DNA of 52,131 nt from Paludibacter sp. (GTDB lineage Bacteria > Bacteroidota > Bacteroidia > Bacteroidales > Paludibacteraceae): positions 1 to 52,131 of the forward strand of contig JACDZH010000002.1 of the NCBI GenBank assembly GCA_013426815.1, given 5' to 3'. The notes beneath the pieces were generated by a model. The model did not search any database. It was not told the DNA's origin and saw only the letters and a program-made list of their open reading frames with translations. Below, in pieces: positions 7,094 through 47,874 of this stretch (within the stretch, counting starts at the first letter, position 1; each line of letters starts with the position of its first letter). The translations under genes and the position numbers were made by a program.

Positions 7094-7675
7094 ATGAAAC
7101 AGAGCATTAAAGCATTTCTAAAAGAACAATTGCATTTGGAAAACGATGTAATTGAAGAGTTTGTTGCGGAGTTTACGGAAGCAGAATACAAGGCAAATGA
7201 CTATTTTTTAAAAAATGGACAAGTTTGTAAGAAAATTGCATTTATTGTAAGCGGTGCAATGTATTGTGTGTATAATAAAAATGGGAATGATAGAATTGAT
7301 GAGTTTTCGTTTGAAAATGACTTCATTACTGATTATTTAGGATTCTTAACCGGTGCTCCTGCCGACAAAGATATTGTTTGTTTGGAGGATTGCAAATTGT
7401 TGGTTATTGACAAAGCATCGTTAGAAAATTTGTACAAAAAAGATATGCGCTTTGAACATTTAGGACGCTTAATGGCCGAAGGTTTATTTATCAACTGGCA
7501 CTTAAAAGCCAAATCTTTATTTCTGGATGATGCAGAAACCCGATACTTCAAACTTGTGGCTACCAAACCTCAGCTCAATCAACGCGTTCCTCAATATATG
7601 ATTGCTTCCTATCTCAATGTAAGTCCTGAAACCATTAGCAGAATAAGAAAAAAAACTTCGAAAAAACTTTATTGA
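7094..7675 (+). CDS. Crp/Fnr family transcriptional regulator (paralogue 2)
   Basis: The frame is open from 7034, but its first 20 codons are the C/G-run repeat, so I place the start at the ATG at 7094 (193 aa, MKQSIKAF). A beta-roll sensor domain is followed by a C-terminal helix-turn-helix with recognition helix PETISRIRK (178 on), matching the Glu, Ser and Arg that read TTGAT in Fnr. Cysteines occur (45, 58 and later) but not in the Fnr cluster spacing. The stop codon TGA lies inside a perfect Fnr-like box (7672-7685) serving the nitroreductase/TonB receptor operon, so this protein is the obvious candidate to bind it. The 5' leader contains the hairpin repeat. Confidence 0.88.
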   Translation: MKQSIKAFLKEQLHLENDVIEEFVAEFTEAEYKANDYFLKNGQVCKKIAFIVSGAMYCVYNKNGNDRIDEFSFENDFITDYLGFLTGAPADKDIVCLEDCKLLVIDKASLENLYKKDMRFEHLGRLMAEGLFINWHLKAKSLFLDDAETRYFKLVATKPQLNQRVPQYMIASYLNVSPETISRIRKKTSKKLY

Positions 7676-7716
7676 TGTAGGTCAACGAACTAGGTTAATT
7701 GTTAAATGTACTTTTG
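7672..7716 (+). promoter_or_regulatory. Fnr-like box and -7 element of the nitroreductase/TonB receptor 1 operon
   Basis: TTGAT-GTAG-GTCAA (7672-7685) fits the Fnr half-site pattern on both sides and includes the TGA stop of the regulator (7673-7675). The -7 element TACTTTTG is at 7709-7716, 37.5 bp from the box centre to its last base. With transcription starting a few bases later, the box would be near -41.5, the class II activator position. Confidence 0.75.
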
Positions 7717-7758
7717 TTGAAACAAACAATAAGTATAAATTTTAAAACAATTATCCCC

Positions 7759-8889
7759 ATGAAAAAGAAGATTTTTTTAATGTTAGTAATAACATCGGTT
7801 TATTCATTTACACTTTTATCACAAAATAAGTACGAAAAAAGAGCAAATCCGGACAATTATTCGGCTCCGGTTATGAAAGCAATTACCTATGGGCTCACTG
7901 CTCCCAGTCCTCACAATACACAATCGTGGTACATCGATACCATTTCCTCCACTGAAATGTTGCTTTATGTAAAGCATCAATTACCAAAAACAGACCCTCC
8001 TTCACGCCAGATTCATATAGGAGCAGGGTGCTTTATCGAATTGGTTTCAATTGGCATGAGTAACGAAGGGTATGAAACTCAGGTTCAATACTTTCCGCAA
8101 GGTGATTACACATTAAACGCTTATGAAATGGCTCAAAAACCTGTTGCAAGAATTAAGCTTGTTAAAAATGCTAGCACAGTTAAAGATAATTTGTACGATT
8201 ATATTTATGAACGTGGAACAAATCGTGGACCTTATACAGGCGAAATGATTACTCCCAATGAATTTAGTGAAATGAAAAATTTAATGGGAAAGGCAGAATG
8301 TGAATTGATATATATATCGGGTACGAATGAAATGAAACCTTATTTGGATATTTTTAGCAAAGCAATGGAAATAGAAACACGAACCAATGCCACCAATGAA
8401 GAAACTCGTTATATGTTCCGATTCAATGAAAATGAACGGTCAACTAAAAAGGATGGAATAAGTATTCCACAAATGGGGTATAGTGGTTTTATCATAAAAA
8501 TGGCAGAAAAATCTCTTAAAAATGGTGACAGTATAACTTGGCATTCAGAAAAAAATTCTAAGGCTACAATGAAAGGAATTAATAAAGGAATTTACAGTTC
8601 AAAAGGAATTATTCTTTTCAAAACAAAGTCAAATACTCCATTGGATTGGGTTTTGGCAGGTCGAGATTATGCCCGATTTAATGTTGCTATTGCTAAAATA
8701 GGAATTGTAACCCATCCCTATAATCAAGTAATTCAGGAATACAACGAAATGGATGAGTTGCAAAATCAGTTTACAACTTTGTCAAAAATAAACCATCCAG
8801 AAAAAATACAAATGATAGTAAGAATTGGACGTGCCAGAAGTACTTACAAATCATGGCGCAAAATGCCGGAGGATTATTTAATCAAATGA
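7759..8889 (+). CDS. Acg-family nitroreductase-like flavoprotein, exported
   Basis: I start at the ATG at 7759 (376 aa): the upstream TTG at 7699 precedes the -7 element. The N-terminus MKKKIFLMLVITSVYSF is a signal sequence. The motif APSPHNTQSW is the FMN-site signature of the Acg/nitroreductase-like family; a second nitroreductase-like half follows (GRDYARFNVA, residues about 310-330). Family members are often exported or lipoproteins in Bacteroidota; in Mycobacterium tuberculosis Acg is part of the DosR hypoxia regulon and seems to sequester flavin rather than reduce substrates. Control from a perfect Fnr-like box fits an oxygen or nitrosative-stress role, but that is inference. It is co-transcribed with TonB receptor 1. 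Confidence 0.75.
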   Translation: MKKKIFLMLVITSVYSFTLLSQNKYEKRANPDNYSAPVMKAITYGLTAPSPHNTQSWYIDTISSTEMLLYVKHQLPKTDPPSRQIHIGAGCFIELVSIGMSNEGYETQVQYFPQGDYTLNAYEMAQKPVARIKLVKNASTVKDNLYDYIYERGTNRGPYTGEMITPNEFSEMKNLMGKAECELIYISGTNEMKPYLDIFSKAMEIETRTNATNEETRYMFRFNENERSTKKDGISIPQMGYSGFIIKMAEKSLKNGDSITWHSEKNSKATMKGINKGIYSSKGIILFKTKSNTPLDWVLAGRDYARFNVAIAKIGIVTHPYNQVIQEYNEMDELQNQFTTLSKINHPEKIQMIVRIGRARSTYKSWRKMPEDYLIK

Positions 8890-8903
8890 TAAAAACCAAA
8901 ATT

Positions 8904-11366
8904 ATGGAAACTTTAAAAATAGACAAGTCAATCAAATCGAGCTATTTATCATTAAAACATAGATCCGCAATAGTCTTAATTTCAATAAGTTGTATTATAT
9001 CAGCTCAAAGCAATTCTCAAACTATTAAACCAGAAAGCATAGTTTCGGCATCCAATCTGGAAATTAACAAACCTGCGCCGATGACTACAATTTATCAAAC
9101 ACTTAAAGGGAGTGTGGTAGATATTGAAACCAATTCGCCACTTATTGGTGCTTACGTTTTGTTGCTGGGAGTGAGTCCGGCTAAAGGTGCTATTACCGAT
9201 GTTGATGGAAATTTTAAAATTGAAAAAGTGCCTGTTGGACGATATAATATTCAATTTGGATACATGGGGTATCAACCTTCGGTGGTTTCGGAAACAATGG
9301 TAACTTCCGGAAAAGAAGTAATTATAAATGTAGGATTGAAACAATCGATGGTGCAAATGAAAGAAGTTGTTGTAAAAGCTAATGCGCAAAAGGACAGGGC
9401 TTTAAACTCTATGGCTTCTATCAGTGCACGTTCATTTTCGGTAGAAGAAACCCGCCGTTATGCAGGCGGATTGGATGACCCTGCTCGTTTAGCATCATCG
9501 TTTGCCGGTGTAACTATGGGAAGTATTACCGACAATGGCATTGTTATTCGCGGAAATTCAGCCAAAGGCGTTTCGTGGCGGCTCGAAGGTGTTGATATTC
9601 CCAATCCAAATCATTTTGCAGGAGCAACGGTTGCGGGAGGTGGCATAGTTACGGTTTTCAGTAGTCAGATGTTGGCAAATTCCGATTTCTTCACTGGAGC
9701 TTTTCCGGCTGAATATGGAAACGCCATGGCTGGAATTTTCGATATGAAGTTTAGAAATGGAAACAATGATAAACGTGAATATACAGCTCAAATTGGACTT
9801 TTAGGTATCGATTTATCATCTGAAGGACCTTTCAAAAAAGGTTCAAAAGCTACTTATTTATTCAATTACAGATATTCAACTTTTGGAATTTTAAAAGCAT
9901 TGTTACCGCCAAATATGGGAATTCCCGAATATCAGGATATTAGTTTTAAATTTAATTTTCCTACCAATCGAGGCGGTTTTTCATTGTGGGGAATTGGCTC
10001 ATCAGATAATTGGCTAAAAAATCAAGTAACAGATTCTACTAAATGGAATTCGGCAGATGATAGACGATTCTTTGATTGGAACTTGAAAATGGGAGCTGCA
10101 GGCATCTCTTATCGACACAGATTGGGTGAAAATACATACATTAATTCAACCATTGCCGGAAGTGGTACGCTCAATGCAATGGATGAAAAACGATATGATA
10201 ACACGATGATTGCTCGTCCCAATTGGCTTTTGAAGGACAATTCCTCGAAAGTTATTTTCAGTACATTATTGAACCACAGATTCAACGAACGCTTACTAAC
10301 CAAAACAGGTGTAAATTTACATAAGATGTTTTATAACATCGACTTAAACAGCACATTGAATAACAATCCTTCTACATTTCAAAATTTCGTAAAGGAAAAA
10401 GGCAATGCTAATTTGATGGAATACTACATCCAAACGAAATACAATGTTACGCAAAACCTGTCTTTATTTGCCGGATTTAACAGCATGTATTTTGAACTCA
10501 ACAAGGATTTCACCTTCGACCCACGCATAAGTCTTAATTGGGATTTTATCCCAAATCATTCGCTTAGTTTTGGATTCGGCAAGCATAGTCAGTTGGAAGA
10601 ATTAAAAATATATATGATTAATAAACAGGTAAATGGCGGAGTAGAACTACCAAATAAAAACCTCGAACTATCACATTCCTTACAATATGTATTGGGTTAC
10701 AACTGGCGTATAAACGAAAATACACGACTTAAAGTGGAGCCCTATTATCAACATTTATACAACATTCCCGGAATTGCCGGCACTTCTTTTTCGATGATAA
10801 ACTTTAATCAGGACTGGACTTTCAGAAATCAATTAGAGAACAACAGTAAGGGGAAGAATTATGGTGTTGACTTTACCTTAGAGCAATTTTTGAATAAAGG
10901 ATTTTATTTTTTGGTAACCGGTTCTGTTTTTAAATCCGAATATCAAGGCGATGATAAGGTTTGGCGAAACAGCAGATTTGATAAAGGCTACGTGGGAAAT
11001 ATTCTTTTTGGGAAAGAGTATAATTTGAAAAACAATAGGGTATTTGGAGTGAATGCAAGGGTAAATTTTATGGAAGGCGATAGGTTAAATCCAGTTGATG
11101 TTTTGAAATCGATGCAGGAAAGATCTATCTATTACGATGATTCTAATGCTTTTTCGGCTCAATTACCTGCATCCCAAAACGTTGATTTAACCCTTACTTA
11201 CCGAAAAAATACCCCAAAGTATTCAGGAGTTTGGGCTTTACAAATAAAAAATCTGTTGGCAGAACCATCGTACAACGGCTATATTTACAATTTAAAAAAG
11301 AATGAAATTGAATTATCGAAAATGGTACTTATATTGCCTATTATCAGTTACAAAGTGGAATTCTAA
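8904..11366 (+). CDS. TonB-dependent receptor 1 with carboxypeptidase-regulatory-like domain
   Basis: About 820 aa from the ATG at 8904. Starts at 8886 (ATGA overlap with the nitroreductase stop) and 8853 are also possible. After a signal segment, a CarboxypepD_reg-like beta-sandwich (about 60-145, SVVDIETNSPLIGAYV, FGYMGYQPS) precedes the plug (about 170-290, with RYAGGLDDPARLASSFAGV and GIVIRGNSAKG) and a 22-strand-type barrel ending in YKVEF. There is no SusD partner and it is shorter than SusC proteins. It is clearly homologous over its length to receptors at 34615 and 47905: all share RYAGG[LF]DDP, LANSDF-type and GAFPAEYGNA motifs. Ligand unknown. Confidence 0.9.
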   Translation: METLKIDKSIKSSYLSLKHRSAIVLISISCIISAQSNSQTIKPESIVSASNLEINKPAPMTTIYQTLKGSVVDIETNSPLIGAYVLLLGVSPAKGAITDVDGNFKIEKVPVGRYNIQFGYMGYQPSVVSETMVTSGKEVIINVGLKQSMVQMKEVVVKANAQKDRALNSMASISARSFSVEETRRYAGGLDDPARLASSFAGVTMGSITDNGIVIRGNSAKGVSWRLEGVDIPNPNHFAGATVAGGGIVTVFSSQMLANSDFFTGAFPAEYGNAMAGIFDMKFRNGNNDKREYTAQIGLLGIDLSSEGPFKKGSKATYLFNYRYSTFGILKALLPPNMGIPEYQDISFKFNFPTNRGGFSLWGIGSSDNWLKNQVTDSTKWNSADDRRFFDWNLKMGAAGISYRHRLGENTYINSTIAGSGTLNAMDEKRYDNTMIARPNWLLKDNSSKVIFSTLLNHRFNERLLTKTGVNLHKMFYNIDLNSTLNNNPSTFQNFVKEKGNANLMEYYIQTKYNVTQNLSLFAGFNSMYFELNKDFTFDPRISLNWDFIPNHSLSFGFGKHSQLEELKIYMINKQVNGGVELPNKNLELSHSLQYVLGYNWRINENTRLKVEPYYQHLYNIPGIAGTSFSMINFNQDWTFRNQLENNSKGKNYGVDFTLEQFLNKGFYFLVTGSVFKSEYQGDDKVWRNSRFDKGYVGNILFGKEYNLKNNRVFGVNARVNFMEGDRLNPVDVLKSMQERSIYYDDSNAFSAQLPASQNVDLTLTYRKNTPKYSGVWALQIKNLLAEPSYNGYIYNLKKNEIELSKMVLILPIISYKVEF

Positions 11367-11512
11367 AAACAACAATAAAATCAAAATTTCGGAAACCGGA
11401 AGATTCGATTTGTTGAAAGTCAAAATGGATCTAAAGCTTAAGAAAAATGACGAAATTGGTATATAAATGTGTTAAAGTATCTAAATTTGTTTGCAATTTC
11501 AAATCAATCATC

Positions 11513-11520
11513 TATCTTTG
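11513..11520 (+). promoter_or_regulatory. -7 promoter element (TATCTTTG) without an intact gene
   Basis: The octamer fits TAnnTTTG and lies in the decayed region after TonB receptor 1. The next open frame (11645) looks like a relic, so this promoter may have lost its gene. Confidence 0.4.
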
Positions 11521-11554
11521 CAAACAAAATATAGTGAATATATAGTTATTGTAA

Positions 11555-11887
11555 TTCTCTATCATTTTAAAACAATTTTGGTTATTACATTTATTTCAGA
11601 TAAATATCAAAGGTGTTGAAACAGAGAATATTTCGGCAAAAGTAATGTCGGAATTACTCAATTTTCCAAATTTTAAAATGACTGTTATATATAGCAATTT
11701 TGACAGCAGGTATTTTGGAATCGAAAAAAGGTATCAACTGAGGCGTACTATTTGCAAGGATTACGATCAAATTAATTTGCATGATATTTTATTGGCAAAC
11801 AATATCCAGAAATTAAATTTCCTTACCAATTTCGATCTGAATGCAACAGGTCAAAGTCCAGATAGTGCAAAAAAATATTATCATTGA
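11555..11887 (+). pseudogene. Possible gene remnant, unknown family
   Basis: A frame is open from 11555 to the stop at 11887. The only ATG is at 11645, in the middle, giving 80 aa (MSELLNFPNFKMTVIYSNF...). The residues before the ATG (INIKGVETENISAKV) look as protein-like as those after it. That suggests a truncated gene rather than a small intact one. I recognise no family. It lies between a -7 element and a methyltransferase relic in a 1.3-kb stretch with no convincing intact gene. Confidence 0.3.
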
Positions 11888-12026
11888 AACCTTATCGCAG
11901 ATAGAAAAAGTGATGAAAAAGAATTAAGGAAAACATCAATACATGATTTACTTAGAACAAATCAATTTTTTACCAATATCTACACATTCACAATATGTAG
12001 TATGTACATTAATAAATAAATAAAAT

Positions 12027-12274
12027 ATGTCAGCATTTTTAAAAGCACAAGACAGTGAGTGGCATTCAGAATATTGCTTCCCGATTTAGAATCCATTTTA
12101 AAGGACGCAAATAATTTGAAAGTACTTGATTTTGGCACAGTACCCTTAAAATTACCTATACTAAATATCCATGGGAATAGCAAATTAGGAATAATTGAAA
12201 TTAATCCGCCATTGATTGAAATTGCCAAAGAAGAAGTCAATACAAGAAGTTTAGATTTGAGATTCAAAGTTTAA
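12027..12274 (+). pseudogene. Relic of a SAM-dependent methyltransferase
   Basis: An ATG at 12027 opens MSAFLKAQDSEWHSEYCFP, then the frame breaks. A second frame from about 12059 continues with LPDLESILKDANNLKVLDFGT...LGIIEINPPLIEIAKEE. The VLDFGT segment followed about 20 residues later by an acidic GIIEIN strand matches motif I and motif II of class I methyltransferases, but the glycine-rich loop is damaged and the C-terminal half is missing. The sequence up to 12678 holds only short open frames. Confidence 0.5.
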
Positions 12275-38772: not shown

Positions 38773-39348
38773 ATGAACGAACTACATAAAATATTACAAG
38801 AACTAATTGGATTAAACGAAATTGATTGGGGAAATTTTAGCAATAAACTTATCAGGAAAGAATTTAATGCCAAAACGCAAATTGTTAAAGAAGGAAGTGT
38901 TGCACAAAATTTGTATTTTATAGAGTCCGGATTGTTACGAACTTATTATTTGCTTGATGGTAAGGAAATTAATACCTATTTTGCTTGCGATAAACAATTT
39001 ATATCTACCTATTCTAGTTTTATTAGTCAAACAATATCTTATGAAATTTTAGAGACAATTGAAGATAGTGTTGTTTATGAACTATCATATCAAAATTTAG
39101 TTGCATTATACAAGGAGTCTTCAAAATTTGAAAAACTTGGACGAATTATAGCTGAAAAAAACTACTTGTGTGTTCTCGACAGAACATTGTCAATGCAAAC
39201 AAAAACTGCAAAACAAAGATACCTGGATTTCATAAAAAATTACGACAAAAAAATAGTTCAAAGAATCCCTATTCATCAAATAGCAAGTTTTCTAGGGATT
39301 GCACCTGAATCATTGAGTCGTATTAGAAAAGAAATTTCCATTTCCTAA
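38773..39348 (+). CDS. Crp/Fnr family transcriptional regulator (paralogue 3)
   Basis: The 191-aa protein has the beta-roll sensor domain (about 25-115, EFNAKTQIVKEGSVAQNLYFIESGLLR) and a C-terminal helix-turn-helix with recognition helix PESLSRIRK (from 178). Glu, Ser and Arg match those of Fnr. No Fe-S cysteine cluster is present. It starts 6 nt after the 38053 gene. Its stop codon overlaps a weak Fnr-like box (39345-39358) in the promoter of the next gene, the same layout as paralogues 2 and 4, which suggests that gene as a target. Confidence 0.85.
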   Translation: MNELHKILQELIGLNEIDWGNFSNKLIRKEFNAKTQIVKEGSVAQNLYFIESGLLRTYYLLDGKEINTYFACDKQFISTYSSFISQTISYEILETIEDSVVYELSYQNLVALYKESSKFEKLGRIIAEKNYLCVLDRTLSMQTKTAKQRYLDFIKNYDKKIVQRIPIHQIASFLGIAPESLSRIRKEISIS

Positions 39349-39388
39349 CAAATATCAATTCCTATCTGTTTTTTCTAGAGTAATTTTG
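39345..39388 (+). promoter_or_regulatory. Promoter of the 39416 gene with degenerate Fnr-like box
   Basis: CTAAC-AAAT-ATCAA (39345-39358) matches eight of ten Fnr-like positions, with an intact right half. Its centre is 36.5 bp from the end of the -7 element TAATTTTG (39381-39388), as at the perfect boxes. The TAA stop of the regulator is inside it. Confidence 0.4.
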
Positions 39389-39415: not shown

Positions 39416-40516
39416 ATGAAAATTAAAACAACTATTAAAACAGTTAGTGCATTGATGATTTTGGGATTCATTGCGAGCGCAACACTTCCATCGTGTTCAT
39501 TACAACCATTGTCATATACACCACCTGTAAAACCAAAATTAGAAGGTGTTTTGGCAGAGAATGAACTTTTAAGTACCACAAAGTGGATAGACTTAAAAGG
39601 ATGGTATGGTCCTGAAGATATTGCAATTGACAAGCAAGGAAATGCATATTGTGGTGCACATATTAGCAGAACAGATTTTACCGACGGACGAATTTTGAAA
39701 ATTGATACAACAGGTAAAGTTGAAGTATTTTGTAATACAGGTGGATGGGTAACAGGACTGCATTTTGACAAAAACGAGAATCTGATTGCTTGCGACCAAA
39801 AACGAGGATTAATAAGTGTAGATAAGCGTGGTAAAATAACCGTTTTGGCTAGCGAGGATAAAAAGGGTAATAAATTTCTAATACCCAACGATGTAGATAT
39901 TGCCAGTGATGGAATAATCTATTTCTCGAATACATCCTCCAAAGTATCATTCAGCAGAAAACACGCACGCAAAATACTGCTCGAAGCAAAATCTGATGGT
40001 GGGCTTTACAGCTATAATCCAATGACGAAAGAGATTACCACATTAATTGACAGTTCTTTTTTTGGCAATGGTGTTGCTGTATCCAAAAATGATGATTTTG
40101 TACTAATGGTAGATTTAACAAAATACAGAGTTGTCAGGCATTGGCTGAAGGGTGAAAATAAAGGAAAAACAGATATGTTTTTAGAGAATTTACCAGGTTT
40201 ACCAAACGGAATTTCAAGAAGAAAAGATGGCAGTTTTTGGTTAGGATTTACAACCAGAAGAGACGATTTACTGGATAACATTCAACCCAAAATTTGGTTA
40301 AAAAAAATCATTTATGCCATTCCTCTTTGGCTTCAGCCAAAACAAGAACCTTTTGGAATGGTTATGCACATTAGCGAAAATGGAGAAATTTTAAAAACGT
40401 ACTACGATACAACCGGAAAATACGTTTCTGAAGCTAGTTCCATTGAGGAGTCGGATGGGTTTATCTATTTGGGTGGTGACTTAACCGACCATATTGGAAA
40501 GTATAAACTTGATTAA
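39416..40516 (+). CDS. Lipoprotein of the gluconolactonase/strictosidine-synthase-like beta-propeller family
   Basis: The 366-aa protein has a lipoprotein-type signal (ATLPSC). The blades show the family's strings: YGPEDIAIDKQGNAYCG, GWVTGLHFDKNENLIACD, IPNDVDIASDGIIYFSNTSSKVS and LPGLPNGISRRKDGSFWLGF. This is the SMP-30/strictosidine synthase/APMAP type of six-bladed propeller, usually calcium-dependent lactone or ester hydrolases. The likely metal ligands are Glu in GPED, Asn in PNDV and Asp in the NGVA/SKNDD region. It has its own promoter right after Crp/Fnr paralogue 3. Substrate unknown. Confidence 0.85.
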   Translation: MKIKTTIKTVSALMILGFIASATLPSCSLQPLSYTPPVKPKLEGVLAENELLSTTKWIDLKGWYGPEDIAIDKQGNAYCGAHISRTDFTDGRILKIDTTGKVEVFCNTGGWVTGLHFDKNENLIACDQKRGLISVDKRGKITVLASEDKKGNKFLIPNDVDIASDGIIYFSNTSSKVSFSRKHARKILLEAKSDGGLYSYNPMTKEITTLIDSSFFGNGVAVSKNDDFVLMVDLTKYRVVRHWLKGENKGKTDMFLENLPGLPNGISRRKDGSFWLGFTTRRDDLLDNIQPKIWLKKIIYAIPLWLQPKQEPFGMVMHISENGEILKTYYDTTGKYVSEASSIEESDGFIYLGGDLTDHIGKYKLD

Positions 40517-40682: not shown

Positions 40683-40726
40683 TTGACATAGATCAAGGAA
40701 ATTACTAAAAATAATCACGATATTTG
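40683..40726 (+). promoter_or_regulatory. Fnr-like box and -7 element of the NTF2-like/DUF6194 operon
   Basis: TTGAC-ATAG-ATCAA (40683-40696) fits the Fnr-like pattern in full. The -7 element GATATTTG (40719-40726) is one base off TAnnTTTG. Box centre to element end is 36.5 bp. The gene start is 14 nt later, so the leader is very short. Confidence 0.7.
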
Positions 40727-40740: not shown

Positions 40741-41205
40741 ATGGAAAATACAGTTTCTGTTATCACAGGTTCTGAGCTTGTTTCGGATATAACGAGCAAA
40801 GAGTTAAAAATCCTCATTCAGTTTTATAAAGCATTCAATCAGTGTGATATGAACTTAATGCAACTGGTTTGGTTTAATAGCAAAGAAAGCTCAATGAATA
40901 ATCCGCTAGGCGGAATTATGAGGGATTGGGACGAAATTAGAAGTGTGTATAATAGAATTTTCACAGGCGAAGCCACGGTTTATGTTGAATTTTTCGACTT
41001 TACGTTGCACGTTACTGAAAACATGTTTTTTGCAACCGGTCGTGAAAGGGGATATGTTGAAATGGGAAACGAAAGAATTGATTTGGCAATCAGGACATCG
41101 CGGATTTTTATTAAATGCCACAACGAATGGAAACAAATTCAACATCATGGCTCGATTGACAACCCCAACTTACTAAAAAAATACCAACAAGCCATTTTAA
41201 AATAA
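40741..41205 (+). CDS. NTF2-like (SnoaL-type) protein
   Basis: The 154-aa protein shows the NTF2-like pattern: an N-terminal helix (ELKILIQFYKAFNQCDMNLMQLVWF), then a cone of strands ending in RIFIKCHNEWKQIQHHGSI. Its SIDN and HHGS end is typical of the ketosteroid-isomerase-like subgroup without clear catalytic residues. It may bind a small hydrophobic ligand. It has a short leader behind a perfect Fnr-like box and is followed after 13 nt by the DUF6194 gene, so the two are co-transcribed. No signal peptide: cytoplasmic. Confidence 0.8.
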   Translation: MENTVSVITGSELVSDITSKELKILIQFYKAFNQCDMNLMQLVWFNSKESSMNNPLGGIMRDWDEIRSVYNRIFTGEATVYVEFFDFTLHVTENMFFATGRERGYVEMGNERIDLAIRTSRIFIKCHNEWKQIQHHGSIDNPNLLKKYQQAILK

Positions 41206-41218
41206 GTAAAAAAACTGA

Positions 41219-41674
41219 ATGACAGCAGCACAATTTGAAATCGAAATACTAAATTCATATAAAGGATTAGTAGTGCTGAATGCGTATGCTGAACTGAGTT
41301 TCTTTTACAATCCGATTGGAGCATTTCCCAAAGGGATTTACTTTGTCACAATAAAAGAAAATGACGGACCAAACGACAAGGCATCTGCACTTTTCAGAGA
41401 AGATGTTTATCGAATCAACGTTGGAATATCAAAAACTTCGTACGAAAAACACTTTGGTAAAAAGCCTTCCAGACCTCCAAAAGGCGGAATTGTTTCGACC
41501 GGACACGATTTTGCAAAGCTTAACCAACTCACTCCGCATCCCATTTACGCTTGGTTACATTGGGTGGCAATTCTCAATCCCGATGCTGATTCAATTCCTC
41601 TAATCAAAGGATTATTGGACGAAAGTTATGCGCTTGTTTTGAAAAAATATGAACAAAAAATGAAGCTACTGTAA
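41219..41674 (+). CDS. DUF6194 family protein
   Basis: The 151-aa protein matches the DUF6194 pattern: FFYNPIGAFPKGIYFVTIKENDGPNDKASALF, REDVYRINVGISKTSYEKHFG and the HPIYAWLHWVAILNPDADS end. The family is of unknown function. It is the second gene behind the Fnr-like box at 40683. Cytoplasmic, no signal peptide. The start (ATG at 41219) is 13 nt after the NTF2-like stop. Confidence 0.75.
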   Translation: MTAAQFEIEILNSYKGLVVLNAYAELSFFYNPIGAFPKGIYFVTIKENDGPNDKASALFREDVYRINVGISKTSYEKHFGKKPSRPPKGGIVSTGHDFAKLNQLTPHPIYAWLHWVAILNPDADSIPLIKGLLDESYALVLKKYEQKMKLL

Positions 41675-41748: not shown

Positions 41749-41796
41749 TACTTTTACGAATAATTTATATTTACTCATCTTGAAAACCTTAGCATT

Positions 41797-42360
41797 ATGT
41801 GTATGCGAGAACAATTAACAATATTTTTACCTGAAAATCGAATTGATGAATTAATATCGATAGGTAAAGAAAAAACAATTGAAAGTTCAGCCTACTTCAT
41901 TCGAGAAGGAGAAATTCCTACTAAAATTGCTTTTGTTATTTCGGGTTTGTTTCGATATGTTTATATCAAGGACAATGGCGAAGAATTTACAAAGGGAATA
42001 TTAACCGAAAACAATTTTCTTAGTTCATATTCTGCAATGATATTGAAACATCCTTCCCATTTCTTTATCGAAGCACTCGAAACATCGAAGGTATTAGAAA
42101 TTAACTGGTTAACTTATATGTTATTAGTAGAAAAAGACATATTTTGGGTTAAGTTTCTTTTGAAATTAGTTGAAAAAGGCTACATGATAAAGGAAAAAAG
42201 AGAAAGAGACCTACTTCTGCTTGATGCCGAAACAAGATATAAAAACTTCCTCACAGAATTCCCCGGAATGGAACAACGAATAAAACAAGGAATAGTAGCA
42301 TCATACTTAGGTATTCAACCCGAAACTTTAAGCAGAATCAGAAAAAGAATGCTTTTTTGA
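41797..42360 (+). CDS. Crp/Fnr family transcriptional regulator (paralogue 4)
   Basis: The 187-aa protein (an ATG at 41803 is also possible) has a beta-roll sensor domain (AYFIREGEIPTKIAFVISGLFRYVY) and a C-terminal helix-turn-helix with recognition helix PETLSRIRK (from 175), keeping the Glu, Ser and Arg of Fnr. No Fe-S cysteine cluster. Its TGA stop (42358-42360) is inside a perfect Fnr-like box that precedes the SDR gene, so it probably controls that gene and perhaps the three other genes or operons with such boxes. It is closest to paralogue 2 in the DNA-binding part (VASYLGIQPET against IASYLNVSPET). Confidence 0.88.
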   Translation: MCMREQLTIFLPENRIDELISIGKEKTIESSAYFIREGEIPTKIAFVISGLFRYVYIKDNGEEFTKGILTENNFLSSYSAMILKHPSHFFIEALETSKVLEINWLTYMLLVEKDIFWVKFLLKLVEKGYMIKEKRERDLLLLDAETRYKNFLTEFPGMEQRIKQGIVASYLGIQPETLSRIRKRMLF

Positions 42361-42400
42361 TGTAGGTCAATGCATCCCTAATTTGTATACGATATTTTTG
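42357..42400 (+). promoter_or_regulatory. Fnr-like box and -7 element of the second SDR gene
   Basis: TTGAT-GTAG-GTCAA (42357-42370) is the same 14-mer as at 7672 and includes the regulator's stop codon. The -7 element TATTTTTG is at 42393-42400, 36.5 bp from the box centre. From the -7 region on, the sequence closely matches the promoter of TonB receptor 4. Confidence 0.75.
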
Positions 42401-42430
42401 CAGTATTATTCACTCAAAAATATTAGTTAT

Positions 42431-43171
42431 ATGAATCTAAAAAACAATACCGTACTTATCACAGGTGGCAGTTCAGGCATAGGACTACAACTAAGCAAAG
42501 TGTTATTACAAAGTGGTAATAAAGTAATTATTTGTGGCAAATCGAATGAAAAGCTCGTGGTTGCAAAGAAATTAATTCCTGAACTCATTACTTATCAATG
42601 TGATCTTTCCAACAGTGTAGATTGCGCTGATTTTGCAAAAAAAATCAGCGTAAATCATCGGGATTTAAACATCCTAATCAATAATGCTGCTACTGTCAAT
42701 AAAGTTGACTTCTTCAACCAACCAGATGCTCTATTGTTGGCAGAGAATGAATATCAAACTAATCTTTTGGCTCCTATTCGGTTAATAAAGCTGCTTTATA
42801 GCACATTGACAACTAACAATGCGCCTGCAATTATAAATATAACTACAGGTCTCATTTACGCGCCACGTGTTATCTATCCATTCTACAATTCATCAAAATC
42901 AGCACTACATTCATTTACTCAAACCTTAAGATTAAATTTGAATAACGAAAAAATCAGTGTGATTGAAGTTATGTTTCCGGCAGTTGATACGCCTTGGCAC
43001 AAAGGAACACCGCCTAAGATTGCCATTTCCGTAGAAAAAGCTGTTGCGGAAATGATAAAAGGTCTTGAAAAAGGAAAATCAGAAATAAAAGTTGGGGGAG
43101 CAAAAATACTCTACTTGATGTCCAGAATTGCGCCTGCATTTGCAATTAAAAAAATGAATGAAATAGAATGA
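42431..43171 (+). CDS. Short-chain dehydrogenase/reductase, DltE-like
   Basis: The protein is 246 aa from the ATG at 42431; the frame is open from 42383 but that lies before the -7 element. Motifs: TGGSSGIG (cofactor loop near the N-terminus), NNAAT (active-site region), TTGLIY and YNSSKSALHSF giving the Tyr-x-x-x-Lys pair. The catalytic Ser/Thr before the Tyr is Thr in NITTG. It is controlled from a perfect Fnr-like box, right after Crp/Fnr paralogue 4. The SDR at 22709 is a distant relative only. Substrate unknown; likely cytoplasmic. Confidence 0.88.
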   Translation: MNLKNNTVLITGGSSGIGLQLSKVLLQSGNKVIICGKSNEKLVVAKKLIPELITYQCDLSNSVDCADFAKKISVNHRDLNILINNAATVNKVDFFNQPDALLLAENEYQTNLLAPIRLIKLLYSTLTTNNAPAIINITTGLIYAPRVIYPFYNSSKSALHSFTQTLRLNLNNEKISVIEVMFPAVDTPWHKGTPPKIAISVEKAVAEMIKGLEKGKSEIKVGGAKILYLMSRIAPAFAIKKMNEIE

Positions 43172-43207
43172 AACACACATGTACGAAGTATCCAGATAAC
43201 TATCGGG

Positions 43208-43333
43208 ATTAGGACACACGAGGGAATGATTATAAATTTTACAAACCTCTCTCTTTCCCCCTTCTTTCTCCCTCTCCATTCCCGCTTGCTGGACAAGTTT
43301 CCGAGGGTTGGGGTGAGGTCTGGGTTAGGGGGC
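43208..43333 (+). repeat. Composite dispersed repeat, copy 2
   Basis: ATTAGGACACACGAGGGAAT and GATTATAAA (43208-43236) match copy 1 at 6991-7020. A pyrimidine run (CTCTCTCTTTCCCCC...) then a purine run (GAGGGTTGGGGTGAGG...) follows, able to fold back imperfectly. It lies directly upstream of the ICMT-like gene, as copy 1 lies before Crp/Fnr paralogue 2. Confidence 0.6.
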
Positions 43334-43346
43334 TAATAATAAACAG

Positions 43347-44510
43347 ATGAAAACTACCATGACAGAATCAACTAAAAAAAACAAATTTCTAAACCTTGCT
43401 TGGTTTCCATACATTTTAATTCTATTCGAAATGCTTTATATGGCAACCCCATTTGCTGCATTTTTTTATTCGGTGTATGAAATTCCGTTGAAATTTTTAA
43501 ACGAGAACGCTCTTACAGCCAGATTGATACAGACCATTTTGCCACATTTTATTGAAACAGACAGCACAATCATACCTTTTCTAATTAACGCTGGGTGGAT
43601 AATGATGGCAATCGGATCAATAGTATTTATTGTAGGATTTATTCAAATTTATTATTCCAAATTTACAAAAAAAGGGGCTGTAACCGGCGGGATTTACAAC
43701 TTTATCCGCCACCCACAATATGCAGCATGGATACTTTTTGGGTTTGGGATGTCGCTTGTCTGGTCAAGATTAATTGTCTGGATTATGTTCGTATCTATGA
43801 TTTTTATATACTACTTACTTGCCAGAGCCGAAGAAAAGGAATGTATGATGAAATATAAGGATACATATCCACCCTATTTCAATAAAACTGGGATGTTTTT
43901 TCCTAAGATATTACACTTAGGTATATCAAATTTCCATTTTCCAAAAAATAAATTTCTATATGGTTCAACCATTTTGTTTATTTATGCGTCGGTAATAAGT
44001 ATAACCATTTTATCGGCTATCGGCTTAAGAAATTACTCCATTTCAAAAATGTCAACTTCTTGTGGAAGTGATTATTTAGCAGTTTCGGTAACCAATATTT
44101 CGCAGCGAGTAACCGATAAGACTATTGATATTATGCTCGGCGACAGGAAGGTACAAGAAGAAATATCAACATTATTCAAAAAAGGAGACTCCAAAATATT
44201 CTATGTTATGCCGCAAACTTGGATTTTTCCTGAATTAGGAATGACAAATGAGTTAAATGAACACAATAATCCACAAGCGCGAACATCATCTCATGGAAAT
44301 TTAGAAGATACTGCTCCAACAAAAAAGAGAGTTTTGATTTCATTGGCAAAACTAATTAAGGATACAGAACCATCAAAAATTCTCAATTACTTAAAACAGC
44401 AGATACCAATGTTATATGTTGACATCGATTTAGAAAAGGGTGAAGTTGTAGGCATATCAAAGCCGCCTCACGAAGGAATATATTCTGATATTCCGGTGCC
44501 TATGTTTTAA
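43347..44510 (+). CDS. ICMT/PEMT-like membrane methyltransferase with C-terminal extension
   Basis: The 387-aa protein has four or five membrane helices. Residues about 110-180 hold the isoprenylcysteine-carboxyl-methyltransferase signature: GGIYNFIRHPQYAAW, then ARAEEKECMMKYKDTYPPYFNKTG, where RHP, the EE pair and Tyr are typical of SAM/substrate binding. Helix 6-like segment YGSTILFIYASVISITILSAIGL follows, then about 160 C-terminal soluble residues of unknown function (ERxRTSSHGNLEDTAPT region). The extension is longer than in usual ICMT-like proteins. The start ATG at 43347 follows the composite repeat; an ATG at 43359 is possible. Confidence 0.75.
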   Translation: MKTTMTESTKKNKFLNLAWFPYILILFEMLYMATPFAAFFYSVYEIPLKFLNENALTARLIQTILPHFIETDSTIIPFLINAGWIMMAIGSIVFIVGFIQIYYSKFTKKGAVTGGIYNFIRHPQYAAWILFGFGMSLVWSRLIVWIMFVSMIFIYYLLARAEEKECMMKYKDTYPPYFNKTGMFFPKILHLGISNFHFPKNKFLYGSTILFIYASVISITILSAIGLRNYSISKMSTSCGSDYLAVSVTNISQRVTDKTIDIMLGDRKVQEEISTLFKKGDSKIFYVMPQTWIFPELGMTNELNEHNNPQARTSSHGNLEDTAPTKKRVLISLAKLIKDTEPSKILNYLKQQIPMLYVDIDLEKGEVVGISKPPHEGIYSDIPVPMF

Positions 44511-44530
44511 TAGAAATATGCTATTTATTT

Positions 44531-45601
44531 ATGAAAACCCGGATTATAATATCACATTGTATTCAAGATTTGAATATGCCGATAACAAAAATGTTGATAT
44601 TAACATATTTTGCAATTGTTTTTAATTCTTGTGCATCCTTTTTGGTAACAGATCATTGCGATGGAAATGAATTTTATAATCCAGCGATTGATTCAACTGA
44701 GCATAGTTTCTCAATGACTATCAAATGGATGTGGAAAATGAAAACTGTAGAATGGCCTAAATGGGTAAACGATCCTCCTCAGCCAGCTCCTCCAAGATAT
44801 GTAAAGAAAGGGGAGTTAAAAGTTACCTATATAAACCATGCAACGATTCTGATACAAGTTGATAGTGTAAATATTCTGACAGACCCTATTTTTTCGGATT
44901 ATGCCGGCCCTATATCATTCATGGGTGTAAAACGTGTCCGAAAACCAGGAATACCAATTGATAGTCTTCCAAAAATTGATATCATATTAATAAGTCATAA
45001 TCATTATGATCATTTAGACTTACCTTCACTTGAAATACTTGCAAAGAGAGACAAACCGATTCTCATTACTGGATTGGGAGTTAAAAAACAGCTCGATGAT
45101 ATTCCTTTCGACAAAGTGCAAGAGATGGACTGGTGGAATAAATTCACTCTAACGCCTGATAGTATTGATGTTACATTTGTTCCGGCTTTACACAAATCGG
45201 GCAGAGGATTGTTTGATGGCAACGAATCGCTTTGGGGTGGATTTGTCATTTCGAATGCTGTTGGTAATATCTACTTTGCAGGCGATACCGGATACGGGAG
45301 TTTTTTGGAGAAATTAAGCCACCGTTTCTCAAGCTTTCGATTAACTATATTTCCTATTGGGAGTTATGAAAAAAGATGGTTTATGAAAAAGCAACACATG
45401 AACCCTGATGATGCCGTAAAAGCACATATTTTGCTCCAATCAAAACAAAGTATAGGTATGCATTACGCCACATTCGCAGAACATCCGGAACAAACCATCG
45501 ATCAGCATGAAAAAGATTTAGATACCGCAATGAATTACTATCAACTACCAAAAGATAGATTTCTTGTTCTAAAATTCGGAGAGGGGATTTATATTCCATA
45601 A
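44531..45601 (+). CDS. NAPE-PLD-like MBL-fold hydrolase, probable lipoprotein
   Basis: The frame gives 356 aa from 44531. An ATG at 44576 (or 44591) gives a better lipoprotein signal ending in FNSC, so the true start may be there. The zinc signature is HNHYDHLD (SHNHYDHLDLPSL); other ligand boxes are VPALHKSG and FAGDTGYG, and IGMHYATFAEHPEQ near the end. The KGELKVTYINHATILIQVD and TDPIFSDYAGP strings are those of NAPE-PLD/UlaG-like phospholipase or lactonase proteins. It sits 20 nt after the ICMT-like gene and 24 nt before the methyltransferase, suggesting an operon acting on lipids or small esters. Confidence 0.85.
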   Translation: MKTRIIISHCIQDLNMPITKMLILTYFAIVFNSCASFLVTDHCDGNEFYNPAIDSTEHSFSMTIKWMWKMKTVEWPKWVNDPPQPAPPRYVKKGELKVTYINHATILIQVDSVNILTDPIFSDYAGPISFMGVKRVRKPGIPIDSLPKIDIILISHNHYDHLDLPSLEILAKRDKPILITGLGVKKQLDDIPFDKVQEMDWWNKFTLTPDSIDVTFVPALHKSGRGLFDGNESLWGGFVISNAVGNIYFAGDTGYGSFLEKLSHRFSSFRLTIFPIGSYEKRWFMKKQHMNPDDAVKAHILLQSKQSIGMHYATFAEHPEQTIDQHEKDLDTAMNYYQLPKDRFLVLKFGEGIYIP

Positions 45602-45625
45602 TTTTTTTCAAATACATGAACAAAT

Positions 45626-46174
45626 ATGAAAGAACAAACGCACCTATACCCTGCCCATCAATCAAAAATTCTGGACAATAAAATCAGAAGGTTGCTACAA
45701 AACCCTTTCAAAATTTTAAAACCATATATATCAACGGGAATGACAGTTTTGGATTATGGCTGCGGAAGTGGATATTTTTCTATACCGCTTTCGGAAATAG
45801 TAGGGTCTACCGGTAAAGTGTATTCGGTTGATATACAGAAGGAAATGTTAGACAAATTAAAGTCTAAGATATTGAAATTGAAGATTGCTAACATCATTCC
45901 GATTCATACTGCTAATAATAACACCAACTTGCAAGTTAGTATTGATTTTGTGATAGCAGCTAATGTTATACATGAAATTCCTGACAAGTATAACTTTTTT
46001 AAAGAAGTATTTGAAACATTAAAACCCAATGGCAAATTGTTAATGATTGAGCCTGATTTCATTGTTTCAAGGCAAAATTTCGATAATACACTTGCAATTG
46101 CAAAACAAGTAGGATTCTTTGAATATAAGACGATAAATTTACTATTAAGCAAGACAAGAATACTGATAAAATAA
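45626..46174 (+). CDS. Class I SAM-dependent methyltransferase, copy A
   Basis: The 182-aa protein has motif I VLDYGCGSGYFSIPLS (near 40-55), an acidic end of strand two (VYSVDIQKEML) and the IHEIPDKYNFFKEVFETLKPNGKLLMIEPDF block, as in small UbiE/methyltransferase-11-type enzymes. It ends soon after that block; the usual last strands are short. The methyl acceptor is unknown. A close paralogue (copy B) is at 50688, sharing NKIRRLLQNP[FY]KIL at the N-terminus and the same C-terminal end. In both places the multi-His membrane protein gene follows. Confidence 0.88.
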   Translation: MKEQTHLYPAHQSKILDNKIRRLLQNPFKILKPYISTGMTVLDYGCGSGYFSIPLSEIVGSTGKVYSVDIQKEMLDKLKSKILKLKIANIIPIHTANNNTNLQVSIDFVIAANVIHEIPDKYNFFKEVFETLKPNGKLLMIEPDFIVSRQNFDNTLAIAKQVGFFEYKTINLLLSKTRILIK

Positions 46175-46321
46175 TATCAAAAAAACTTGTAACAATACAA
46201 AACATGCATGCTAAGGTTGATTATTATTGAAAAAAAATCACATTCATACTGCAAAAACAGTGAATCCAAACCACGAAAGTGGAAATAATTAAGTACAAAC
46301 TATTTACTAAATTACACACAA

Positions 46322-47023
46322 ATGAAAAAGCTAATTGTAGCCATTTTGGTTATATTGAATACAAATATGGCTTTTACTCAATCGGACATAGATAATATGA
46401 GTGATAATTCCAAATTATCAACCGACTCAATGGATCAACCCAAGCAAGTTCTAATAGTAAATACAATTGACGACACGACTCAGTTTGTTAAATTGGTTTC
46501 TCCGTCCGATTCCACAATTCCATTGCCACGAAAGATGTTTTTAACTCAACGATTACTTTGGGGCAAAAAGGGATTGATGAGAAACTTTGATAGATTTGAA
46601 TTGTCCCATTCCTACAGAGAAAGAGAAATATCAATCAGAGATAAAATGATTTCTGCTCATCAATTTTTAGGATATGCTACATTAATAGGCTTAGCAAGTG
46701 TTGGTGTGACAGGAATAATGATAAAAAATGACAATGATGTGAGGGATTTACACGAAGGATTAGCCGGCGTTACCAATCTACTCTATTTTTCGACTGCAAC
46801 TATGGTGCTATTTGCCCCTCCCCGATTAAAAGATAGAGACAGTGGTTGGTCTAAGGTTAAAATACATAAAGTACTTTCAATTTTGCACTTTATAGGTATG
46901 ATAACTACCAATGTATTGGCCGAAAGGTCAACACACAATTCAGATTTATTAAAATACCACAAGATAGCCGCAATCACTACATTCGCAGCGTATTTTGCTT
47001 CAACAATAGTAATTAAAATTTAA
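46322..47023 (+). CDS. Multi-His membrane protein, possibly b-type haem-binding, copy A
   Basis: The 233-aa protein has a signal-like start, a soluble stretch of about 90 residues (with VKLVSPSDST and KMFLTQRLLWGKKGLMRNFD) and four or five membrane helices. Histidines sit in or next to helices: His113 (SAHQFLGY), His144 (DLHEGLAG), His189 (ILHFIGM), His213 (KYHKIA); all four are kept in copy B at 51389. His182 is Asn in copy B. Such paired helix histidines suggest cytochrome b561-like haem ligation, an inference from spacing only. It is followed by a two-helix protein and a superoxide-reductase-like protein, so a redox role is likely. Confidence 0.65.
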   Translation: MKKLIVAILVILNTNMAFTQSDIDNMSDNSKLSTDSMDQPKQVLIVNTIDDTTQFVKLVSPSDSTIPLPRKMFLTQRLLWGKKGLMRNFDRFELSHSYREREISIRDKMISAHQFLGYATLIGLASVGVTGIMIKNDNDVRDLHEGLAGVTNLLYFSTATMVLFAPPRLKDRDSGWSKVKIHKVLSILHFIGMITTNVLAERSTHNSDLLKYHKIAAITTFAAYFASTIVIKI

Positions 47024-47041
47024 TCGATATTATTTAATAAT

Positions 47042-47242
47042 ATGGAAAATTTTCCAATTTATGAAACATCAATTTGGATAGGAATTATTGGCTTTATACT
47101 CATTATTTTCACATCTTTATTAGGGTATAGAATCATCAAAACACCCGTAAAAATGCATCTTCATAGGCGTATTGGCATACTTGGATTAGTTGCTTGTACA
47201 ATCCATTCATTCATCATGTTTTACTTCTATTTATTCACTTAA
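47042..47242 (+). CDS. Two-helix membrane protein
   Basis: The 66-aa protein has two hydrophobic helices (IWIGIIGFILIIFTSLLG and IGILGLVACTIHSFIMFYFYLF) with His in the loop (KMHLHRR) and in helix two (CTIHSF). It starts 19 nt after the multi-His protein and 15 nt before the superoxide-reductase-like gene. The His placement again resembles half of a haem-binding helix bundle, so it may be a subunit of the same complex. No family recognised. Confidence 0.6.
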   Translation: MENFPIYETSIWIGIIGFILIIFTSLLGYRIIKTPVKMHLHRRIGILGLVACTIHSFIMFYFYLFT

Positions 47243-47256
47243 AAAATTGATTTATT

Positions 47257-47592
47257 ATGAAAATATATGTCTTAATATTACTGCTTTTGGCATCTTCATT
47301 TTTTATTTATGTAAAGCCTGACCCTGCAAAGAAAATAATTTTGTCGTACAATCATGGTCTTTTATACATTGAGGTAATACATCCGGTAAAAAACGTAAAT
47401 TCACATTTCATTGATATGATTAAAATTATGGTCGATGGAAAGGAAGTAAAGAAAATAAAACTAACGAAACAATCGAGCCCTGAAGCTGAAATTCAGGAAC
47501 TTGTAATAACAGAAATTAAACCTGGATGTACAGTTGAGGTAAAAACACATTGTAATGAATTTGGAAATAAATCAGCAAAGCTGAAGTTATAA
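47257..47592 (+). CDS. Superoxide-reductase-like (SORL/desulfoferrodoxin-family) exported protein
   Basis: The 111-aa protein has a short hydrophobic leader. It matches the SORL fold pattern: YNHGLLYIEVIHPVKN with His33 and His42, NSHFIDMIKIMVDGKEV with His50, PEAEI and a C-terminal CN-x-x-G (THCNEFG, Cys99). The canonical iron site of superoxide reductases uses four His and this Cys; in CN-x-H-G the last His would be at 102, which here is Phe. So at least one ligand is missing, and His98 next to the Cys may or may not replace it. Exported SORL-like proteins are known in Bacteroidota. It is third in the gene group starting at 46322. Activity unproven. Confidence 0.55.
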   Translation: MKIYVLILLLLASSFFIYVKPDPAKKIILSYNHGLLYIEVIHPVKNVNSHFIDMIKIMVDGKEVKKIKLTKQSSPEAEIQELVITEIKPGCTVEVKTHCNEFGNKSAKLKL

Positions 47593-47830
47593 ACTCAATC
47601 TTTTTTGTAAACGTCAGGTTCATCGTGAAATGGTTGATATGAAAATTCATCCTTTTTCTACTTATTGCTCAATTGTCTATAAATTGATTAATAATAACGT
47701 AGAAGTATTATCAACTCATCATCCTATTAAAATTCGAAATCACACCTACTACTTCGAAAAACACGAAATTCGAATTTTTTCATTTCTTTAATATCAATCC
47801 TTTCGCTTTTTTTTTATTTACAATAGATTT

Positions 47831-47874
47831 TTGACTTGAGTCAATGCACGTAAAATATTGGCACGATACTTTTG
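47831..47874 (+). promoter_or_regulatory. Fnr-like box and -7 element of TonB receptor 4
   Basis: TTGACTTGAGTCAA (47831-47844) is a perfect TTGAC-N4-GTCAA. The -7 element TACTTTTG (47867-47874) ends 36.5 bp from the box centre. The other bases of the 312-nt gap hold no gene that I can see. Confidence 0.8.

Follow-up and report, generated by a model that had tools for sequence, protein, structure and literature searches.

The DNA stretch analysed here (the window) comprises positions 1 to 52,131 of contig JACDZH010000002.1 from Paludibacter sp. (assembly GCA_013426815.1). It has a GC content of 33% and is part of contig C421 of a 3.77 Mb genome, which consists of 499 contigs and is 99.95% complete. 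The window encodes four regulators of the Crp/Fnr family, and at the 3' end of each of their genes an operator-like box was found, followed by the −7 element of the next gene (Table 1). These arrangements most probably represent four activation cassettes, each a self-contained unit of a short Crp/Fnr regulator with its own 3'-end operator, a reading to which a probability of roughly 0.83 is assigned. For the target of cassette 1, a Pfam search gave no match.

Table 1. Features of the four proposed cassettes and of the two satellite boxes in the window (−7 elements and operators are predicted; aa, amino acids; ORF, open reading frame).
Feature	Position	Strand	Basis
Crp/Fnr regulator 1, 187 aa, recognition helix TPRHLSR, protein ends right behind the helix	5623..6186	+	profile/Pfam, translation
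Putative operator of regulator 1, AGACAAATGTCT, core AGAC-AAAT-GTCT (6198-6209)	6197..6210	+	inspection of gene 3' end
−7 element TACTTTTG of gene 6268	6234..6241	+	inspection
Cassette 1 target, 209 aa	6268..6897	+	ORF
Crp/Fnr regulator 2, 213 aa, helix SPETISR	7034..7675	+	profile/Pfam, translation
Putative operator TTGATGTAGGTCAA at the 3' end of regulator 2; TGA of the box (7673-7675) is the regulator stop codon	7672..7685	+	pattern
−7 element TACTTTTG behind box 7672	7709..7716	+	inspection
Acg-family flavin mononucleotide (FMN) oxidoreductase, cassette 2 target; ATG start (ORF list: 7699)	7759..8889	+	NCBIfam
Crp/Fnr regulator 3, 191 aa, helix APESLSR	38773..39348	+	profile/Pfam, translation
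Putative operator CTAACAAATATCAA of regulator 3, asymmetric, ESLSR class; holds the TAA stop (39346-39348)	39345..39358	+	inspection
−7 element TAATTTTG behind box 39345	39381..39388	+	inspection
SMP-30/strictosidine-synthase-like protein, cassette 3 target	39416..40516	+	Pfam
Crp/Fnr regulator 4, 187 aa, helix QPETLSR	41797..42360	+	profile/Pfam, translation, predicted structure
Putative operator TTGATGTAGGTCAA of regulator 4; TGA of the box (42358-42360) is the stop codon	42357..42370	+	pattern
−7 element TATTTTTG behind box 42357	42393..42400	+	inspection
Short-chain dehydrogenase (SDR), cassette 4 target	42431..43171	+	Pfam
Satellite box TTGACATAGATCAA, without a Crp/Fnr gene directly upstream	40683..40696	+	pattern
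−7-like element GATATTTG	40719..40726	+	inspection
SnoaL-like and DUF6194 genes behind box 40683	40741..41674	+	Pfam
Satellite box TTGACTTGAGTCAA	47831..47844	+	pattern
−7 element TACTTTTG behind box 47831	47867..47874	+	inspection
TonB-dependent-receptor-like protein 4, ATG start; Pfam match only to the CarboxypepD_reg domain	47905..50220	+	Pfam

Perfect matches to the pattern TTGAYNNNNRTCAA occur exactly four times in the window (7672, 40683, 42357, and 47831), compared to a mean of 0.76 box matches in 100 dinucleotide shuffles, none of which reached four. In this order, the gap between the box end and the end of the TTTG motif amounts to 31, 30, 30, and 30 nucleotides (nt), and the distance between the box centre and the end of the −7 element to 38, 37, 37, and 37 nt (36.5–37.5 bp to its last base); the −7 elements read TACTTTTG, GATATTTG (without the first T), TATTTTTG, and TACTTTTG. 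Box and TTTG at this spacing were found four times, as compared to a mean of 0.026 and a maximum of two in 1000 dinucleotide shuffles. Pattern count, spacing, and shuffles thus confirmed that the four boxes lie at a fixed distance from a −7 element, as claimed in an earlier note on this DNA. With one mismatch allowed, the box alone was not enriched in the window (13 found versus 15.6 expected).

A scan of the whole genome, set beforehand as the check on chance occurrence, detected 49 TTGAY-N4-RTCAA boxes versus 13 for the reversed control pattern, placing the pattern beyond chance; from this genome-wide density, 0.7 boxes would be expected in a 52-kb window that contains four. Among the 22 matches of box and TTTG in the genome, 11 fell on a span of 44 or 45 out of 15 possible spans (reversed control: two), four of them being located in the window and 7 of 18 outside, the latter seven being candidate promoters. 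A search for TTGA-N6-TCAA followed by TAnnTTTG at gaps of 17–27 yielded 13 matches, six of which had a gap of 22–23, and none for the reversed control. The four boxes are very probably Crp/Fnr sites. Class II promoters of Escherichia coli FNR and CRP feature TTGAY-N4-RTCAA sites, an ExxSR recognition helix, and a site centred near −41.5. By analogy, the same sites, helix, and centring appear to be shared by the system described here: the distance to the −7 element, which is preferred across the genome, is compatible with the class II-like position proposed earlier, in which the site would be centred about 41.5 bp upstream of the transcription start.

The earlier note had further combined the four boxes into one local Fnr-like regulon. 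Its observation of four Crp/Fnr genes held, none of them featuring an FNR-like cysteine set upon inspection of the four translations, and the targets that it named were recovered (an oxidoreductase of the Acg family, scoring above the NCBIfam cut-off, a short-chain dehydrogenase, and the SnoaL_3 and DUF6194 genes). In the ORF list, the starts of the Acg, SDR, and TonB-4 genes fall upstream of or within the −7 region, and were corrected to the ATG codons at 7759, 42431, and 47905. The boxes proved to be real and similar to Crp/Fnr sites; however, the boxes at 7672 and 42357 extend across the stop codons of two different Crp/Fnr genes, and the other two Crp/Fnr genes own differing boxes at the same place (6197-6210 and 39345-39358), which were missed by the TTGAY pattern because of their sequence. 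The box CTAACAAATATCAA at 39345..39358 also fails a strict repeat test, since it is asymmetric. The single regulon was therefore not upheld in the form stated, and the four units are regarded as separate cassettes.

Related loci in other genomes were found to preserve this arrangement. In genome G023, regulator, box, and target of cassette 1 stay together, the target being 97% identical; the target of cassette 3 is 95% identical in G004 and lies behind the same box, and the junction between regulator 4 and the SDR gene is kept in G004 and G033, where the box reads TTGACTTAGGTCAA. A Flavobacteriaceae contig (L091) carries the identical 14-mer TTGATGTAGGTCAA together with a regulator and an Acg target of 68% identity. 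Next to regulators approximately 51% identical to regulator 2 (L090 and C488), the following gene does not encode an Acg protein.

The cyclic-nucleotide-binding (cNMP) fold PF00027 was recognised above the cut-off in all four window regulators and at E ≤ 0.001 in all 23 members of alignment A2; HTH_Crp_2 matched only 4 of these 23. The AlphaFold2 model of regulator 4, based on alignment A2 (mean predicted local distance difference test value 95.9; predicted template modelling score 0.88), contains a long helix (115–141) followed by helices 144–154, 164–170, and 175–186, which would represent a dimerisation helix and a C-terminal helix-turn-helix. No strand is predicted after the recognition helix (175–186 of 187 residues), and hence a beta wing appears to be absent. 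For 247 members, the median number of residues after the SR or SK was seven. The nearest solved structure by sequence is PDB 3dn7, a 'cyclic nucleotide binding regulatory protein' of 194 amino acids (profile positions 3–187 of 189, E = 4e-53), which, like the family, ends right behind the helix and, unlike it, has no SR in this helix (TPEYLSE). A literature search did not retrieve the term 3DN7.

Of 99 Bacteroidota genomes sampled, the own one among them, 51 contain the family (E ≤ 1e-15), with up to 21 copies; among 40 relatives, 30 had a match at E ≤ 0.001, a count to which weak matches with long Crp/Fnr proteins of the ordinary type contribute. The phylum set covered all matches listed outside the own genome and comprised 30 loci (one of them from the own genome) and 108 stretches, weaker members being under-sampled. 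From 198 profile hits in the phylum rows, the own genome, and the relatives, 181 were kept, close relatives not being thinned. Hits that stopped short of profile position 180, duplicates of identical DNA, and two hits with insufficient sequence downstream were removed; the 181 include a few low-scoring Crp/Fnr proteins of the ordinary type (L082, L083, L084, and L088). A TTTG motif, picked by its TA alone and regardless of repeats, is located at least 12 nt behind the stop in 157 genes and is missing in 24. An inverted repeat (at least four of five arm pairs) was found at offset 37 in 56 and at offset 38 in 17 of these genes, i.e., in 73 of 157 and never twice in the same gene, whereas any other offset from 20 to 61 accounted for 0–14 genes. 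In control 3' ends of other ORFs from the same loci (323 ends, not selected for a co-directional next gene, 195 with TTTG), the repeat was present four times at 37 and once at 38, and shuffled downstream DNA gave 15 and 12 of 445, respectively.

When TTTG was restricted to 36–75 nt after the stop, 133 of the 181 genes remained, and 78 of the 181 showed a strict box. The next ORF is co-directional in all 78 cases; no strict box was found in the 12 genes followed by an opposite ORF or in the six lacking a next ORF. Among the 78, the stop-to-TTTG distance is 40 nt in 19 genes and 48–49 nt in 20, and the stop codon lies within the box in 22 (13 TGA and 9 TAA); the median distance from TTTG to ATG was 25 nt. 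An unaligned search for the best repeat near the stops discriminated poorly (strict repeats in 71 of 181 versus 22% of shuffles), indicating that the signal resides in the fixed spacing. First downstream ORFs (n = 126; co-directional, TTTG 36–75 nt after the stop, with or without a strict box; E ≤ 1e-5) included 14 short-chain dehydrogenases, eight CMD, six NmrA, six polyketide cyclase-like, five YceI, and five GNAT matches and, more rarely, three nitroreductases and three DJ-1 proteins, a spectrum that suggests sensing of small molecules. Autoregulation was considered as well and rejected: in front of the ORF of its own regulator, the operator showed no enrichment (4 of 77 at up to one mismatch, expected 2.4; nine at up to two, expected 16.4).

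A profile search of the own genome gave 17 matches, counted as 16 loci after two pieces on C37 had been joined. By eye, a box at this spacing was recognised in 13 of the 16, several being asymmetric and a decayed copy on C37 being included. At C176, a repeat is present, but no TTTG lies at the right place and the frame contains a stop; C261 and C468:991 have no box and are followed by an ORF on the opposite strand. Box types vary by paralogue, namely TTAGAC-N4-GTCTAA (RHLSR), TTACC-N4-GGTAA (PQSLSR), TTATC-N4-GATAA (NVSFSR), TTGAT-N4-GTCAA (PETFSR), and others. Similar boxes with TTTG at this spacing were also found at C254, C373, and C451 (twice), C254 itself being a cassette. In the decayed copy (G000:C37:30-423), the AGACATTTGTCT box and the −7 element are still intact. 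At G000:C451:49522-49638 (L032 and L240), two TTGAY-N4-RTCAA boxes approximately 30 bp apart point in opposite directions, each with TTTG at the same spacing; no neighbouring Crp/Fnr gene was recognised at this pair.

A helix with SR or SK is carried by 122 of 133 genes, and box classes, assigned by inspection and majority, could be related to the helix type. ETxSR is accompanied by TTGAY-RTCAA, EFxSK by TTGAA-TTCAA, ESxSR by the asymmetric TTAMC-RTCAA, RHxSR by [AG]GAC-GTC[CT], QSxSR by TTAMC with GGTAA or GTGAA, some SS, TS, and YS helices by TTGCC-GGCAA, VSxSR by TTWAC-GTAAA, PNALSR by CTACC-GGTAG, and PTQLSR by TCAAC-GTAAA, with exceptions inside the helix classes. In the window, FNR-type specificity is predicted for the two ETxSR proteins, which are found with TTGAY boxes; the box of 38773 (ESLSR) matches by half, and that of 5623 (RHLSR) is of the AGAC type. 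Boxes of same-helix pairs with less than 35% effector-domain identity were more alike (difference 0.158; mean 0.001 and maximum 0.084 in 2000 permutations), and the signal remained below 25% effector identity (0.68 versus 0.52). High mutual information with the box was obtained for helix positions 3, 4, and 7, in particular between helix position 3 and half-site position 3 (z of 6.3 for the distal and of 10.3 for the proximal half) and between R/K at helix position 7 and half-site position 5 (z 3.3 distal, 7.2 proximal), and none for helix position 5. On a FastTree tree calculated without the helix-turn-helix (176 rows), the helix type changes at least 61 times. There, of 10 independent contrasts, E/R at position 3 and a proximal G changed in the same sense in 7.0 and in the opposite sense in 0.5 (median p 0.031, range 0.008–0.289), and S at position 4 and a distal A at position 3 in 6.1 versus 0.4 of 11 contrasts (p 0.039); as controls, position 5 (0.2 versus 0.6 of 6) and position 1 (2.3 versus 3.5 of 19) showed no association.

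The relation between helix and box also proved predictive for new genomes. A second draw contained the family in 119 of 228 genomes at E ≤ 1e-30, earlier genomes being partly included; the test set was limited to 80 genes of previously unused genomes among the matches listed (19 loci and 60 stretches), three other listed rows, and two more that contain internal stops, being left out. TTTG is present in 71 of the 80 genes, and the repeat lies at offset 37 in 20 and at 38 in 11, corresponding to 30 genes (one in both), with at most five at any other offset. For the 50 scorable genes, the own helix class ranked first of 16 in 26 cases (permuted 4.6, maximum 10 in 300) and among the top three in 35 (permuted 11.5, maximum 19 in 300). 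Since new genomes may hold orthologues of training genes, the test was repeated by identity to the nearest training gene, measured outside the last 25 residues: first ranks were obtained for 17 of 35 genes below 60% identity (permuted 3.1, maximum 8) and for 7 of 17 below 50% (permuted 1.6, maximum 5 in 200).

Two box types were found to be nearly exclusive to cassettes. In the whole own genome, AGACN4GTCT-N24..34-TTTG has three matches, at 6198 (cassette 1), in the C468 cassette, and in the decayed C37 copy of the latter (reversed control: six). TTGCCN4GGCAA followed by TTTG occurs 14 times in 11 genomes (reversed control: five), the four matches at spacing 37 being four known cassettes; of nine matches at other gaps, two are adjacent to a family gene (behind it in L283, before it in L276) and seven are not. 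The AGAC boxes and the TTGCC boxes at spacing 37 would fit singleton regulons, in which a regulator acts on the neighbouring operon only; the TTGAY type, with its satellite boxes, would not. In L276 (G115:C1:770848-770897), TTGCC-N4-GGCAA is located just upstream of a family gene with the helix TPFTLSR, which may reflect autoregulation or chance.

A relative is present in 103 plasmid records, and in all ten that were retrieved a 3'-end repeat was visible by eye; an automatic picker chose the same box in five and other repeats in five. The Flammeovirga and Persicobacter records combine an RHLSR helix with an AGAC...GTC repeat, and the Bernardetia record an ETLSR helix with the box TTTGATATAAATCAAA, 37 nt from TTTG. 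On the Rhizobium tropici megaplasmid, ESLSR is found with TTACC...ATCAA, and Ensifer and Pseudoalteromonas megaplasmids also carry 3'-end repeats; no TTTG at this spacing was detected in the four Pseudomonadota plasmid records. On a 4404-bp plasmid of Bacteroides finegoldii (L374), a methyltransferase gene lies behind a Crp/Fnr gene with the helix TPETVSH, the stop codon of which is spanned by TTGAGATACTTCAA; this repeat lies 36 nt from TTTG. Four winged Crp/Fnr genes (L274, L272, L267, and L261; helices ETVIR or SREVISR) have ATGAY-N4-RTCAT or TGTGAC-N4-GTCACT boxes behind their stops at the same spacing.

Regarding the satellite boxes, the promoter at 47831 resembles that of cassette 4 over box, −7 element, and leader, its closest counterpart being the G004 version, and thus looks like a copied promoter; the 40683 promoter was perhaps likewise copied to another gene. 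The SnoaL and DUF6194 genes behind 40683 had no match in the 8.6-kb G004 contig. The TonB-receptor-like gene 4 is flanked by a duplicated two-gene block (45626-47023 and 50688-52123), which consists of a methyltransferase-like gene and a gene for 233/244 amino acids (the first copy without a Pfam match), the copies being 63% and 72% identical.

In the layout observed, the regulator gene stops directly behind the recognition helix, where a putative inverted-repeat operator of approximately 14 bp, in many cases with the stop codon as part of it (T[TGA]Y or T[TAA]C), is centred 37–38 nt upstream of the end of the next gene's −7 element. In the mechanism proposed by analogy with class II Crp/Fnr promoters, a dimer bound near −41.5 would recruit RNA polymerase to one downstream gene or operon, often encoding small redox or detoxification proteins. 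A few helix residues would set the operator sequence, so that paralogues with different helix types should be insulated from one another, while identical boxes or a promoter copied to another gene (47831, perhaps 40683) could give rise to small local regulons.

One Fnr-like regulator might instead control the four boxes together, in a regulon of local or even global reach, with the other Crp/Fnr genes being unrelated. The identical 14-mers at 7672 and 42357, the fit of all four boxes to TTGAY-N4-RTCAA, and the similar boxes at C254, C373, and C451 would agree with this; however, it is unlikely, as the stops of two different Crp/Fnr genes fall within 7672 and 42357, regulator, box, and target stay together in related loci of other genomes, the box at this position differs in paralogues whose helix differs, and C254 is itself a cassette. 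Owing to the identical boxes, cross-talk between cassettes 2 and 4, i.e., a small shared regulon within the window, is nevertheless conceivable. Repression of the next gene has a similarly low probability: a box at about −48 to −35 could block the polymerase and the helix data are silent on the sign of regulation, but a centre near −41.5 is the classical position of class II activators, and the base profile of the 78 promoters displays no conserved TTG at −33, a T-rich stretch being all that follows the box.

An inverted repeat directly downstream of a stop codon is often a transcription terminator, and the repeats described here could represent terminators or RNA hairpins of the regulator gene. 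This is extremely improbable, considering the fixed distance to the downstream −7 element, the stop codon within the repeat in 22 of 78 genes, the covariation with the recognition helix, and the weak RNA folds at the four cassette boxes (z 0.04 to −1.34) and at the 47831 satellite (z −0.44); for the satellite at 40683, the fold is unusually good (z −3.5). Mere shared ancestry of close paralogues as the source of the covariation was judged very unlikely. The genes derive partly from related genomes, supported tree contrasts are few (10–11), and prediction weakens below 40% identity, but the signal persists below 25% effector identity, the helix type changes repeatedly on the tree, and prediction succeeds for genes less than 50% identical to training genes.

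Several results weigh against the interpretation as cassettes with a helix–operator code. Only 43% of the 181 genes passed the strict test, many others being asymmetric and judged by eye, and some genes have no box despite a co-directional next gene. The same layout occurs in 5 of 28 winged Crp/Fnr genes, and hence extends beyond the short family; in G119, the 3-kb locus around one TTGCC match at spacing 38 contains no family member, and the regulator of L091 is readable only across three frames, due to sequencing errors or decay. Helix position 1, for which no base contact is expected, also shares mutual information (z 6.8) with position 3 of the proximal half-site, though it showed no association on the tree. 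On the tree, K at position 7 with a proximal A (4.4 versus 1.1 of 7; p 0.375) and position 3 with the distal half (3.3 versus 0.6 of 10; p 0.375) were not significant, and RH is represented by only two contrasts. In the new genomes, 24 of the 50 genes were not ranked first, and below 40% identity the result was not significant (3 of 7; permuted 1.1, maximum 4).

FNR is a global regulator with an iron–sulfur cluster and a winged helix-turn-helix; unlike FNR, the family features mostly one regulator per target, has no such cysteine set, and has its C-terminus just past the recognition helix. 'Singleton regulons' of Crp/Fnr, ArsR, and GntR regulators were reportedly described in Desulfovibrionales by Kazakov and colleagues in 2013, family by family, as local regulators of a neighbouring operon; they are alike in their adjacent targets and belong to a different phylum. 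In Bacteroidota, CrpPg of Porphyromonas gingivalis is described as a global regulator and HcpR and PgRsp as stress or redox sensors, and the available part of that text contains no such cassette (PMC12040651). The term 'bacteroid' is absent from the available main text of PMC12531629. No description of operators at Crp/Fnr gene 3' ends was recognised in a literature search covering the available text of PMC12531629, PMC12040651, PMC5045206, PMC8222616, and PMC8510549, with most subscription papers outside its range.

Beyond the window, it appears reasonably likely that a wingless Crp/Fnr family has evolved phylum-wide as portable cassettes of regulator, operator, and promoter, with the operator in the gene 3' end. 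Any gene landing behind such a cassette would come under its control, and the layout may reach megaplasmids of Pseudomonadota. The operator read by a given bacterial regulator is usually unknown; here, position alone would indicate it for a family present in about half of the sampled Bacteroidota genomes, yielding hundreds of self-documenting helix–operator pairs. If this holds true, the recognition code of a large bacterial regulator superfamily would become directly testable, the insulation of paralogues would be explained, and orthogonal activator–promoter pairs for Bacteroidota would become available. The cassettes would also hint at how targets are swapped through rearrangement.

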